Positions 11,159 to 33,831 of a DNA stretch of 33,831 nucleotides are shown in pieces. Position 1 is the first letter of the stretch. Each line of letters starts with the position of its first letter. Source of the stretch: Bacteroidota bacterium (lineage in GTDB: Bacteria; Bacteroidota; Ignavibacteria; Palsa-1295); the NCBI GenBank assembly GCA_021324685.1, contig JAJPIQ010000075.1, positions 1 to 33,831 of the forward strand, written 5' to 3'. Below the pieces are notes generated by a model. It searched no databases. It worked only from the letters and a program-made list of their open reading frames with translations, and was not told where the DNA came from. The translations under genes and the position numbers were made by a program.

Positions 11159-13438
11159 TCAGCCTACATGCAGATACGACTCAGCATCGCGGTACTGGCG
11201 CAGGAATTCTTCCCTCGTCGGCCGATTTTCGGGCCGTGCGAGCCGAGTATCCTGTTCCAAAAGTTCTCCGGCATCTTTGAGCGCCTGCTCCACAAGCGCA
11301 ATATCGGCAGTGAGATCGGCAATATTGAGCCGCACTTTCCCGGATTGTTTCAACCCCAGAATCTCGCCGGTACCACGGAATTTCATGTCGGCTTCGGCAA
11401 TTTTAAAACCGTCCGAAGTCGCGACGAGCGTCCGAAGCCGTTCGAGCGCAAGCGACGACTGCTCGATCTCATCGCTCGTCTCATTTTCCGCTTCTCCGGC
11501 CAGCTTTTCGCTCGCTACGAGGACGCAGGCGGAGTCCGCGCTCCCGCGGCCGACCCGACCCCGAAGCTGATGCAGTTGCGCCAGCCCGAATCGTTCAGCG
11601 TGTTCGATGATCATCACCGTTGCGTTCGGCACATCGACTCCGACCTCGATGACCGTTGTCGCAACAAGCACATCGAACTCCTTCTGTCGAAACCGGCGCA
11701 TCACGTCCTGTTTTTCCTGTGAGGACAATTTGCCATGCACCAGGCCGACGCGGAATTTTTTAAACGCTTTGGAGCGCAGATCTTCATAGGCTTTTTCTGC
11801 GGCTTCGGAATCGACTTTCTGCGATTTTTCACGTAGCGGATAAACAATAAAGACCTGCTCGCCGCGTTCTTCGATCCTTCGTATTGCCGCTTTGTAGATC
11901 TGAGCATGGTCGTGCTCGAAAAAGAGCATGGTTTTGATCGGTTTTCTTCCGGACGGAAGTTCACGAATGGTGCTTACTTCCATGTCGCCATAAATGGTGA
12001 GCGCCAGCGTACGCGGAATGGGCGTAGCCGTCATCAGCAAAACGTCCGGCGTAACGATTTCGGGGGTGTGCAGTGTGACACGGAACATATCGCGCTCGAA
12101 TTCTTCGACGTTTGCCGCCTCTGCGCTTTTTTCGATCAACGCTTTGCGCTGTGCCACGCCGAACCGGTGCTGTTCATCGGTCACGACGAACCCTAACCGT
12201 TGAAATCGGACGTTTTTCTGGAACAGGGCATGCGTCCCGACGGCAATGTGCGTTTCCCCGGAAGCAACGGAAGCGAGAATCGCCGCGCGCTCGCGTTTCG
12301 ATTGTCCGCCGATGAGCAGCGCTGTTTTTAATGGCGTATCCTTTAAAATTCTCGAGATCGTATCGAAATGCTGCACCGCCAGCACTTCCGTCGGCACCAT
12401 GAAGGCACATTGGTAACCATTTTCAATGGCCGCCAGCATGGCAAGCAATGCGACGATCGTTTTTCCGCTGCCGACATCGCCCTGCAAAAGCCGGTTCATG
12501 GGATAGGACTGCCCTTCCTTCGACATGTCGTACAGGATTTCGCGAAGGGCACGCCGTTGATCGTCGGTAAGCCTAAAGGGCAACGAAAGGAGCACTCGTT
12601 CGGCGATACCCTGAGCTTCGGAACTCTTCTCTTCGAGCACGGCCATCATCCGGGAAACGTCGTATTTCACGACCCCTTTCACCGCCCGCCGCATGCGGAT
12701 CCGCTCGACGGCAAGGCGCAATTCCAGAAAAAAGATCTCTTCGTATTTTAATCGCCGCTTTGCCTCTTCGAGCCGTTCCGGCGTTTTCGGGCGATGGACC
12801 TCCTCGATCGATTCCGTTCGCGGCATCAGCCGATGGCGTTTTAAGAGGGCGGGCGGAAGGATCTCGGTAAAAAGGTCTAAGCCTTTTCCGGCATCGATCG
12901 ATTTTTGGACCAGCGAACGAAATTCCTTATCTCGAATCCCGGCTTTTCGAAGTGAGGTCGGCAGATAGTAGAGCGGCAGCATCTGGCCTTGTACAAATTC
13001 TTCGGGACTCGCCAAATGCTCGATAAACGGCGGCTGAACGATCTGTAAGACGCTCTTATACTCGCCGGCATATCCGGCAATTAAAAATTCGTCCCCGGTT
13101 TGGAATTGTTTTGCACGCCATTCCGGATAATCGAAAAAGACGAGCTGCAAGAGGCCGCCGGACTGATCCTGCAACATCACGGCCGCGCGAGAACGCCGGC
13201 GGCCGGGAATGACGAGCGAAGAAATTACGCTGCCGCGCACGCTCACCGGTTCGCGTAAATGCTTTCGAAGTTGGTTTAATGGAATGAGCGCACGCGCGTC
13301 CAGATAGCGGCCGGGAATATGGAAGGCGAGGTCCTCGACATATTCAAAACCGGCCTGTGCAAGCGCCTCCGCTTTTTTCGGCGAAAGCCCTTTTAATCGA
13401 CGCAGAGAGTTCGGTGGCGGAACGGGGTCAACGAGCAC
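11159..13438 (-). CDS. recG: ATP-dependent DNA helicase RecG
   Basis: RecG remodels stalled replication forks and branch-migrates Holliday junctions. The 759-aa product has the N-terminal wedge/OB region, starting LRRLKGLSPKKAEALAQAGF and containing VRGSVISS. The SF2 helicase motifs follow: Walker A GDVGSGKT at about 317-324, DEQH box at about 420, LLMTATPIPRTL, and the RecG-specific VIEVGVDVPNATVM plus QLHQLRGRVGRG. The C-terminal LKQSGKVRLNIADL is also typical. The start is GTG at 13438; the N terminus aligns with other RecG proteins there, and no ATG is nearby. This start lies inside the first copy of a 31-bp tandem duplication shared with the rnr upstream region. It probably leads an operon with the two genes that follow. 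Confidence 0.97.
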   Translation of the reverse strand: MLVDPVPPPNSLRRLKGLSPKKAEALAQAGFEYVEDLAFHIPGRYLDARALIPLNQLRKHLREPVSVRGSVISSLVIPGRRRSRAAVMLQDQSGGLLQLVFFDYPEWRAKQFQTGDEFLIAGYAGEYKSVLQIVQPPFIEHLASPEEFVQGQMLPLYYLPTSLRKAGIRDKEFRSLVQKSIDAGKGLDLFTEILPPALLKRHRLMPRTESIEEVHRPKTPERLEEAKRRLKYEEIFFLELRLAVERIRMRRAVKGVVKYDVSRMMAVLEEKSSEAQGIAERVLLSLPFRLTDDQRRALREILYDMSKEGQSYPMNRLLQGDVGSGKTIVALLAMLAAIENGYQCAFMVPTEVLAVQHFDTISRILKDTPLKTALLIGGQSKRERAAILASVASGETHIAVGTHALFQKNVRFQRLGFVVTDEQHRFGVAQRKALIEKSAEAANVEEFERDMFRVTLHTPEIVTPDVLLMTATPIPRTLALTIYGDMEVSTIRELPSGRKPIKTMLFFEHDHAQIYKAAIRRIEERGEQVFIVYPLREKSQKVDSEAAEKAYEDLRSKAFKKFRVGLVHGKLSSQEKQDVMRRFRQKEFDVLVATTVIEVGVDVPNATVMIIEHAERFGLAQLHQLRGRVGRGSADSACVLVASEKLAGEAENETSDEIEQSSLALERLRTLVATSDGFKIAEADMKFRGTGEILGLKQSGKVRLNIADLTADIALVEQALKDAGELLEQDTRLARPENRPTREEFLRQYRDAESYLHVG

Positions 13439-13491
13439 GTGGAATTAAGATTCGCGTCTTAACGAGCACGTAGAATTAAGATTCGCGTCTT
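13430..13491. repeat. 31-bp tandem duplication in the recG-rnr divergent region
   Basis: Bases 13430-13460 and 13461-13491 are the same 31-bp sequence with a single difference (G at 13441, A at 13472). Each copy carries the inverted repeat TAAGA-TTCGCG-TCTTA; in the first copy the arms extend to TTAAGA / TCTTAA (13445-13462). The palindrome centres are therefore 31 bp apart, close to three helical turns. The first copy contains the recG GTG start; the second copy ends 28 bp before the rnr ATG. Confidence 0.95.
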
Positions 13492-13519
13492 ATGGTTCGA
13501 TGGTGGAACGCTCTCACGT

Positions 13520-15823
13520 ATGCCAAAAGCCAAACCCTCTTTCACGAACGCTTCGATTTCCACACGCCTGCTCGAAGTGATGCAGGCGCACCCCACCGAG
13601 CTCTTCAAGACCAACGAGCTCTCGAAGATGCTCGCCATCAAGTCCGACAGCGGCGAATACCAGACGTTGCGGGAGGTCCTGAACACGCTCGAACGCGAAG
13701 GAACGATCGTCCGCGGTTCCCGCCGCCGCTATGGCCTGCCCCGCGCCGAACGAACAGAGATCGAAGGGACGCTGCATATTAAATCGACCGGCAACGGGAT
13801 CGTGACTCCGGCCGAAGGATTTGAAATGGGCGATACGATCCTTATTCGCGCCAGGAACCTTTCTACGGCGCTCGAAGGCGATACGGTACGGGTTCATCTG
13901 TTCGCTCCGCAAAAAGGCGAACGCCCCCAGGGGGAGATCGTCGAGATCCTCCGGAAAGCCGCGCACCGCATTGTCGGAACGATCGAACGCTCGCGCCAGG
14001 GATTTTTCGTTCGCCCGGAGGGCGGCCGGATCAAACGCGACATTTTTATTGCCCGCAAGGACCTCCACGGCGCAAGAGAAGGCGATCGAGTAACGATCGA
14101 ACTCTACGAATGGACTGATGAATATCTCCTGCCCGAAGGCTTTGTCCTGAATGTGCTCGGCACCAAAGTGCACGGCGGATTCAGCAACGATGCCGTCATA
14201 TCGGAATATGACCTTCCGCAATCGTTTCCTTCGGCCGTCGGAAAAGAGACGGAGGGATTATCCGACGAGATCTCCGAAAAAGAAGTAAAGAAACGGATCG
14301 ACCTTCGCGGCGAAATCATTTTTACGATCGATCCCGAAGACGCGAAAGATTTCGACGATGCCGTCTCGCTCGTCACCAATAAGGACGGTACCGTCCTCCT
14401 CGGGGTGCATATCGCCGATGTGAGCCATTTCGTGCGCGAAGCCTCCGCGCTCGATACGGAAGCGCTCGCGCGCAGTACGAGCGTCTATCTCGTCGGCGAA
14501 GTGATCCCGATGCTTCCGGAACGAATTTCAAACGAACTCTGCTCGCTTCGTCCCGACGAAGATAAGCTGGCCTACTCGGTCTTTCTTACCGTCGATCCCA
14601 CGACCGGAAAAGTCCTGTCGGCGAACATCGCAAAAACCGTCATTCGTAGCGTGATGCGTTTTACCTACGAAGAAGCCGAACAACGCATTAAGAGCGGTCG
14701 TGGAAAGCATGCGAAGCTCTTGCGAGACATGCGGGCGCTGAGCGAAAAAATGTACGAACGACGCCGGGAAGCCGGCTCGATCGACTTCGAGTCCGAAGAA
14801 TTCAAGTTCCGGTTCGAAGCGGGCGAGCCGGTCGAATCCATTCGAAAAGAACGTTTGGGTTCCATGCGCATGATCGAGGACTTTATGCTCGCCGCCAACC
14901 GTGCCGTTGCCGAATTTATAGCTCGGAAAGCAAAACAAGGGGCCGAGCGGCCGTTCCTCTATCGCATCCATGCCGAACCGGATGCCTCCAAGATCCGGGA
15001 ACTTGCACAGCTCGCAAAAACGCTCGGTTATAAATTATCGGCCGAAAATCCGACCCCGAAAACGGTCCAGAAATTTTTGGAATCGCTCAAAGGAAAACCG
15101 GAAGAGCATTTGCTCAATCAACTCATGCTTCGCACCATGGCAAAGGCCGTCTATGCCGAGCATAACGTCGGCCATTTTGGGCTTGCCTTCCTGCACTATA
15201 CCCATTTTACGTCGCCGATCCGGCGGTATCCGGACCTCATCGTGCACCGCATGCTCTTCGAGTATCAGCGGCCCGGCGGCATGAACGCCGAACGCGAACA
15301 TCATTACTTCGAACTCCTCCCGGAGGTCGCTGACCAGACGAGCGCCATGGAACGCCGGGCCACGGACGCGGAGCGCGCCTCCATCAAGTTGGCCCAGGTC
15401 TATATCTTAAAGCACAAGGTGGGCGAAGAATTCGACGGTGTCATTACCGGCGTCACCCACTTCGGAATTTTTGTCGAAATCCCCTCCGGAGCGGAAGGAC
15501 TCGTCCACATTAGGGAACTTCCGGGATATTACGAATTTGACGAGGCCCATTACTCGCTGATTCAGCGCCGCGGTTCCTATGGCTCGAAGGGCGAAGGCCG
15601 CCGGTTCCGTATCGGCGATAAGGTACGCGTACAACTCGTCAAAGTGATGGAGGAAAAACGGCAGGTCGATTTTCGATTGGCGGACGATGGTCCCGCCGCC
15701 GAAGGCGACGGAGCGCGACCGGGACCTACCGAGAACGAGAAACTTCGCCGCCAGGAACGTCACCACGAGCGCGTTGGCGGACGACCTCGAACAGGGCAAC
15801 GCCGGCGGCAACGCTCGCATTGA
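13520..15823 (+). CDS. rnr: Ribonuclease R (RNB-family 3'-5' exoribonuclease)
   Basis: RNase R degrades structured RNA from the 3' end and takes part in rRNA and mRNA turnover. The 767-aa product has an N-terminal winged-helix-like region (LLEVMQAHPTELFKTNELSKML), two cold-shock domains (about 80-230) and an RNB domain. The four metal-binding Asp residues are D271, D277, D279 and D280 in IDPEDAKDFDDAV. The conserved HYTHFTSPIRRYPDL is present, as is an S1 domain from about residue 635 (FDGVITGVTHFGIFVEI). The last 35 residues are a strongly basic, Arg-rich tail, as in other RNase R proteins. The ATG at 13520 is the natural start. The final 98 bp overlap the 3' end of rlmB on the opposite strand. 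Confidence 0.97.
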   Translation: MPKAKPSFTNASISTRLLEVMQAHPTELFKTNELSKMLAIKSDSGEYQTLREVLNTLEREGTIVRGSRRRYGLPRAERTEIEGTLHIKSTGNGIVTPAEGFEMGDTILIRARNLSTALEGDTVRVHLFAPQKGERPQGEIVEILRKAAHRIVGTIERSRQGFFVRPEGGRIKRDIFIARKDLHGAREGDRVTIELYEWTDEYLLPEGFVLNVLGTKVHGGFSNDAVISEYDLPQSFPSAVGKETEGLSDEISEKEVKKRIDLRGEIIFTIDPEDAKDFDDAVSLVTNKDGTVLLGVHIADVSHFVREASALDTEALARSTSVYLVGEVIPMLPERISNELCSLRPDEDKLAYSVFLTVDPTTGKVLSANIAKTVIRSVMRFTYEEAEQRIKSGRGKHAKLLRDMRALSEKMYERRREAGSIDFESEEFKFRFEAGEPVESIRKERLGSMRMIEDFMLAANRAVAEFIARKAKQGAERPFLYRIHAEPDASKIRELAQLAKTLGYKLSAENPTPKTVQKFLESLKGKPEEHLLNQLMLRTMAKAVYAEHNVGHFGLAFLHYTHFTSPIRRYPDLIVHRMLFEYQRPGGMNAEREHHYFELLPEVADQTSAMERRATDAERASIKLAQVYILKHKVGEEFDGVITGVTHFGIFVEIPSGAEGLVHIRELPGYYEFDEAHYSLIQRRGSYGSKGEGRRFRIGDKVRVQLVKVMEEKRQVDFRLADDGPAAEGDGARPGPTENEKLRRQERHHERVGGRPRTGQRRRQRSH

Positions 15824-31600: not shown

Positions 31601-31874
31601 TGCGATGATGAACGCGGGAATGAGCCGTTTTTTGTGAATGCGCCCTTTCTTGTGAATGCGCCCTTTCTTGTGAATGCGCCCTTTCTTGTGAATGCGCCCT
31701 TTCTTGTGAATGCGCCCTTTCTTGTGAATGTGCCGTTTTTTGCAAATGCGCCTTTTTTGGAGCGGCCGCTTCGGTCTGCGAAAATGCGGGGGCGACCGCA
31801 AAAGTAAGCCCGAAAGCCATGACGAGCATGCACAAGAGCCAGCGAAAGGAGACGGTCCGGAAGCGTGTTATCAT
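28698..31874 (-). CDS. BNR/sortilin-type beta-propeller protein with T9SS sorting tail
   Basis: The 1058-aa product is a predicted T9SS cargo. It has a signal peptide (cleavage about AFS|QT, residue 32). A repeat linker follows at residues 42-89 (AHSQER units), then a His/Arg-rich stretch (VHHRRSHHRARPRNHSKTR). A long propeller region, about 190-960, has many Asp-box/BNR motifs such as STDGGGTWNY, STDGGATWTR, STDTGHTWQR, SADQGVTWTK, STDLGATWKD and TTNGGKKWVN. This architecture is like the sortilin/Vps10 or glycosyl-hydrolase BNR proteins of Bacteroidota. The last 85 residues (from about 974) start FIYPNPVAGTSFRIE and end GEARVALVSR, matching the type A sorting domain. Enzymatic activity is not evident. 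The PorU/PorV pair in this window could process and export it. Confidence 0.88.
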   Translation of the reverse strand: MITRFRTVSFRWLLCMLVMAFGLTFAVAPAFSQTEAAAPKKAHLQKTAHSQERAHSQERAHSQERAHSQERAHSQERAHSQKTAHSRVHHRRSHHRARPRNHSKTRTLESKPARIQTSIREHAPPPGHDGEERSDWFSRRRAWPGETIDPAYYPNALAQAARMPVLSERIGKEGTLSSFVWEPIGPYSIDGRVSAIATDPTDTNTFYIGAAAGGLWKTTDHGASWHCTTDTFGSLSIGCITIDPAQPQTIYIGLGECNGSSDSYPGDGLWKSTDGGGTWNYIGFAAAQYIAKVAIDPRNDKQLFIAVPGPNSLTDTNKGIFRSTDGGATWTRSLFVKPSASDCVGFIDLAMNPLNAAQIVAFAVDHSITIGPNFNPGGPSGPHTGIYRSTDTGHTWQRIDTMASSGLPNGEKENVLGRGALLWTMTGGLPPARDYLFAGYIRTDTNVVTHDLLDENFEGLYRSADQGVTWTKILDSTIKIPMGGVQGKDSANITNAQGGYNFYLTAAPVGPAIDPDIYLGGIDVFRSTDLGATWKDITDSYSEYYVKGNREQHSDQHGLAFAGSDLLVVSDGGLFSTYDFGATWKQMTGLPITMFYSVEPWRAGMAHTPATISASDLKVFGGTQDNGTVGNLLDTSFAWINHGDGEAAVSHPTDTNKLITSLQYGVIFARNTLDSLLPLPLAMKDSTHDSRPRWHTLTYRLLYGPHALTDTEEAVAWNAPIALDEQDPAELYTGRCHVYRATLDWNDLENITWRTWSPPIEGNVTKDSQWYYGDIETVALGPRDANGRPMLWAGGYGTSGVLWRTTVDPTTSDTTPPHWIGAHGAGLPVATISQVVPDRSDSMTAFCATMSTSGAAHVLKTTNGGKKWVNISGNLPAAAASALAIDTLAEHGDPALKDQALIVGTDVGVYATTNGGAQWFALGTGMPHVIVSDLKIYKNMLIASTHGRSLYAVDIGGLQAVPSSVTRASASTVPPLFIYPNPVAGTSFRIETAGTEPASACRMIEVSSGKEFTLPVRESGAGQYTIDRGALEPGAYIAELRSASGRTLGEARVALVSR
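31618..31761 (-). repeat. Eight 18-bp tandem repeats coding a His/Arg/Lys-rich linker
   Basis: Five exact copies of GAATGCGCCCTTTCTTGT (plus-strand reading) lie at 31636-31725. They are flanked by one variant copy on the left (31618-31635) and two on the right (31726-31743, 31744-31761). Read on the coding (minus) strand they give AHSQER five times, bordered by AHLQKT and AHSQKT. All six frames across the array are stop-free, so it also creates spurious ORFs such as repeated VNAPFL on the plus strand. Confidence 0.97.
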
Positions 31875-33482: not shown

Positions 33483-33575
33483 GGCTCATTGCCTGACGTC
33501 GGAATGACGCCTGAAACGTGTGAACTTTAGTCCGCCGCCCTGGCAGATCGCTTCCATCCACACGAAAACCACTTT

Positions 33576-33682
33576 TGTCATCCCCGCGGAGGCGGGGATC
33601 CAGTGGTCCAATGATAGGTACGGAAAGATTTCAGATACCGCCTGGATTCCCGTTCCCGGTCGGGTCGAGGACAGGCTACTCG
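33576..33682. repeat. Interspersed palindromic repeat, copy 1
   Basis: This 107-bp unit begins TGTCATCCCCGCGGAGGCGG and ends GGACAGGCTACTCG. It holds a small hairpin (CCCCGC / GCGGGG, 4-nt loop) and a distant inverted pair (GGATCCAG / CTGGATTCC-like). It belongs to the widespread class of GTCAT(T/C)CCCGC...GGCGGG(A/G)ATCCAG intergenic elements found in many bacteria, similar in form to dRS3/REP-like repeats. No transposase is present, so movement would be non-autonomous. Confidence 0.88.
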
Positions 33683-33724
33683 CGACATATTATGCTGAGG
33701 GTGCATTCTAAACACAACCTTTCC

Positions 33725-33831
33725 TGTCATCCCCGCGGAGGCGGGGATCCAGTGGTCCAATGATGGGTACGGAGAAATTTCAGATCTCGCCTGGATTCCC
33801 GTTCCCAATCGGGTCGAGGACAGGCTACTCG
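33725..33831. repeat. Interspersed palindromic repeat, copy 2 (reaches window end)
   Basis: This is a same-orientation copy of the unit at 33576-33682. It has the same 107-bp length and differs at about eight positions, for example ATAGG/ATGGG, AAAGAT/AGAAAT and CGGTC/CAATC. It ends exactly at the window edge, so the element or an array of it may continue to the right. Confidence 0.88.

Follow-up and report, generated by a model that had tools for sequence, protein, structure and literature searches.

A 31-bp tandem duplication at the 5′ edge of recG in a Bacteroidota draft genome: a probably recent and neutral event in the divergent recG–rnr spacer

Introduction

Bacteria have short intergenic tandem duplications and minisatellite-type (VNTR-like) repeats. 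The repeat described here, between recG and rnr, resembles them in its head-to-tail, near-identical copies, its largely noncoding position and its presence in one species without a counterpart in relatives; it differs from minisatellite-type repeats in having two copies only, in a comparison of one genome per species. The part of the literature that was accessible yielded no published repeat in a recG–rnr spacer. In Beggiatoaceae, intergenic repeats of the heptanucleotide TAACTGA are reported (PMC4679880), which share with the present locus the occurrence of short direct repeats between genes but differ from it in that the unit here is 31 bp long and lies at one place.

Results

The window, a stretch of 33,831 nt from a draft genome of 3.47 Mb in 89 contigs (G000), contains recG on the minus strand and rnr on the plus strand, diverging from a spacer of 81 nt. 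Both names derive from NCBIfam equivalog models with scores above the cut-offs. The features of the spacer and its borders are as follows.

11159–13438, minus strand: recG, ATP-dependent DNA helicase, 759 aa, GTG start (NCBIfam equivalog model)
13428–13469, minus strand: putative 13-codon frame, VLVKTRILIPRAR plus a stop codon, beginning at the outer copy's GTG and terminating inside recG
13430–13460, unstranded: inner copy of the repeated 31 bp, on the recG side, with the recG GTG start (13438–13436, minus strand)
13445–13462, unstranded: palindrome TTAAGATTCGCGTCTTAA with 6-bp arms, its outermost right-hand bases supplied by the junction with the next copy; not above shuffles
13461–13491, unstranded: outer (rnr-side) copy of the 31-bp unit, one mismatch against the inner copy
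13477–13492, unstranded: second palindrome TAAGATTCGCGTCTTA with 5-bp arms, within the shuffle range
13520–15823, plus strand: rnr, ribonuclease R, 767 aa (NCBIfam equivalog model)

The two copies of the unit, AACGAGCACGT[G/A]GAATTAAGATTCGCGTCTT, stand head-to-tail with a spacing of 31 bp and are identical at 30 of 31 positions, G/A being the sole mismatch (TRF score of the array, 119). Adjacency and near-identity rule out chance for the duplication itself. Only 14% of the array is coding, namely the start of recG; the remainder is noncoding. A preliminary description of this DNA had reported the near-identical pair, the motif TAAGA-N6-TCTTA in each copy, the recG GTG start within one copy and a further GTG upstream in another frame, all of which are borne out by the sequence. 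An assembly artefact is scarcely plausible as the source of the repeat: the genome is a draft in many contigs and three sampled arrays lie at contig starts, but this repeat lies in the interior of a 33.8-kb contig and carries a mismatch, and duplications elsewhere in the genome have many different unit lengths, for which no single k-mer effect accounts.

The annotated GTG is likely the correct recG start, because the recG frame is closed by a stop just upstream, inside the repeat, and no alternative ATG, GTG or TTG is seen before the conserved NSLRRLKG block. The inner copy retains the first three codons and the 22 nt that precede them, bar possibly one mismatched base. The second GTG, in the outer copy, opens the 13-codon frame, whose stop (13430–13428) lies just beyond the third recG codon. 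The extra copy might thereby alter recG translation, its frame overlapping the recG start and either competing with it or coupling to it, as the preliminary description had suggested. We regard this as improbable. The frame does exist, its GTG has nearly the same context as the real start, and the nearness of its stop to the recG start would permit coupling in principle. Against this, inspection by eye reveals no evident purine-rich, ribosome-binding-like sequence upstream of either GTG, and such a frame arises automatically when the copied unit includes a start codon and its length is not divisible by three. No relative carries the repeat, hence conservation of the frame gives no support either way.

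The comparison with relatives, one genome per species, places the duplication in its own genome only among those searched. A DNA search with 13430–13519 found no match in any of the 293 other genomes of the class. While recG is present in all seven genus genomes and rnr in all 41 genomes searched, the two are neighbors in only four of the seven genus genomes, as a divergent pair (G000, G004, G005 and G006); the best recG and rnr matches of G001, G002 and G003 sit on different contigs. Spacers were measured in G004 (93 nt) and G005 (136 nt); in G006 the rnr ORF as listed begins at an early GTG and thereby overlaps recG. Both measured spacers are unrelated in sequence to that of the window and contain neither the motif nor the repeat. 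A search for related loci returned four at 66–73% identity, with no closer relative among them, and no genome searched carries a single copy that would display the ancestral arrangement.

The recG–rnr spacer of the sister genome G004 (L003) contains a run of heptads of the GAATTAA/GAATGAA type. We draw no link between this heptad family (GAATTAAGAATGAAG runs) and the present unit, which contains GAATTAAGA, because the pattern at up to two mismatches has no match in the window's genome and a reversed-pattern control is nearly as frequent in G004 itself (25 matches against 34). At several of the 34 places in G004 the heptads form pairs in opposed orientation, separated by some tens of bases.

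The preliminary description had also offered the repeat as a duplicated operator with joint control of recG and rnr; in such a reading a dimeric regulator would occupy both palindromes from the same side of the DNA. The divergent spacer does carry two palindromes 31 bp apart; their symmetry, however, is within chance. The outer copy has the 5-bp-arm form TAAGA-N6-TCTTA only, the following base spoiling a sixth pair. Dinucleotide shuffles of the 81-nt spacer reached an arm of at least 6, the best real value, in 408 of 2000 cases; for a 59-nt piece with the outer copy alone, whose best arm is 5, at least 5 was reached in 935 of 2000 shuffles and, among 1126 pieces of 59 nt taken from the window, in 536. 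We take the palindrome to be a chance property of the 31-bp unit, duplicated together with it. The centers do lie 31 bp apart, as the same-face argument held, but this phasing is not independent evidence, because the distance follows from the duplication.

No regulon of symmetric sites accompanies the palindrome. TTAAGA-N6-TCTTAA matches only the recG–rnr spacer in its own genome and is found in none of the 12 other family genomes (1 of 13 with its own included), and no further symmetric site was found near promoters in the genome. The looser 19-mer AATTAAGATTCGCGTCTTA, allowed up to three mismatches, occurs at seven places: both copies and five others. Sixty permutations of its letters, scaled to the genome, predict roughly 0.35 sites; the five exceed this, but the excess is weak evidence since such permutations do not preserve oligonucleotide bias. 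Two of the five are next to minus-strand ORFs: one, which counts in favor of the operator, precedes by 45 nt an ORF with carbamoyl-phosphate synthase domains, and the other is just past the 3′ end of its ORF. The remaining three are within ORFs of at least 150 aa. None keeps all five arm pairs (three or four of five, counted by eye). We read the five as evidence against an operator while noting their excess.

On stretch L133 (201–2201, minus strand), a 666-aa ORF encodes a partial carbamoyl-phosphate synthase large chain with preATP-grasp, ATP-binding and MGS domains, and is possibly a split or shortened carB.

With no symmetric site elsewhere in the genome, the family or, by DNA search, the class, with recG and rnr adjacent in only some genus genomes, and with arms no longer than those of shuffles, we set the operator aside as very unlikely. 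The uniqueness of the site does not disprove function, as a site serving a single promoter would look alike. An RNA element or terminator in the leader transcript deserves almost no credence. The isolated 18-mer could form a weak hairpin (−3.1 kcal/mol), but the spacer as a whole shows no more folding stability than its shuffles for either strand (z 0.53 and 0.61), contains no terminator-like site, and gives no Rfam match up to E 1.

Short duplications of this kind are numerous elsewhere between the genes of the genome. We applied TRF (units of 15–60 bp, match at least 90%, mostly noncoding) to 40 stretches of the own genome (L126–L145 and L187–L206; 669,483 bases, window excluded) and to 40 stretches of four same-genus relatives (G001, G003, G004 and G005). 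The own genome gave 14 arrays; after removal of three that lay at the ends of stretches, 11 remained in 64,937 noncoding bases, against one in 74,444 noncoding bases of the relatives (Fisher p 0.002). Their density is thus about 13 times higher, as estimated from stretches picked by hand rather than at random, with coding and noncoding DNA split by a greedy ORF call rather than a gene finder; one of the 11 arrays (L132) came from five own-genome stretches that had been picked for loose motif matches. Coding DNA was included in a second scan, run independently of TRF, that accepted exact or one-mismatch copies. With a minimum unit of 12 bp it counted 20 duplications in 669 kb of the own genome and 11 in 788 kb of the relatives (p 0.047); with a minimum of 15 bp the counts were 17 and 5 (p 0.004). 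The size of the excess therefore depends on how a duplication is defined.

The units of the own-genome duplications are unrelated in sequence. Thirteen two-copy duplications have extra end homology of 0 nt (six), 1 nt (four) or 2 nt (three), which we estimate to be about the chance level, with no need for homology. Ku (PF02735) was detected in none of the seven genus genomes, and a control search over 14 named genomes found it in one, Bacillus subtilis; Ku-dependent end joining was accordingly rejected as the source of the homology-free duplications.

Further repeats were observed in passing. At L136:1049–1103, a 27-bp unit occurs twice with a 100% match, likewise in a divergent spacer. Within the window, an 18-bp tandem array of 7.7 copies occupies 31618–31756 in a predicted coding region, and a 116-nt direct repeat, 91% alike, lies at 33567–33682 and 33716–33831, its second copy stopping exactly at the contig end.

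Discussion

We conclude that the repeat is very probably a recent, likely neutral tandem duplication of 31 bp in a relatively A+T-rich spacer at the 5′ edge of recG. Its neutrality, its recency and its mutational route are what we infer from the pattern described above. The earlier proposal of a recent slippage event divides accordingly: near-identity of the copies, their restriction to one genome and the many similar duplications favor a recent duplication, but strict slippage calls for several nucleotides of homology, and the end points share 1 nt at most. Illegitimate, homology-independent duplication therefore describes the repeat better than classical slippage between direct repeats.

In the most likely course, spacer DNA would have undergone illegitimate duplication once, and a lone base substitution would have come later. 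Since the inner copy preserves the recG start codon and the bases immediately upstream, initiation would be largely unchanged, with everything further upstream of recG shifted by 31 bp. This shift may have been tolerated if the recG promoter sits upstream of the outer copy; a scan restricted to sigma-70-type sites found no sigma-70-like promoter.

Taken alone, the repeat matters little. It shows that a duplicated unit containing a palindrome can look like a paired operator, the helical phasing being fixed by the duplication. Of the whole finding, only the genome-wide excess is mildly notable. That excess tentatively raises the possibility, which we think less likely to hold than to fail, of a lineage with an unusually high rate of homology-free, Ku-independent tandem duplications of 15–31 bp that survive mainly between genes, the recG–rnr repeat being one product. 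If the excess holds in a full, random comparison, it would offer a small clue to the way in which bacteria lacking Ku form such duplications.
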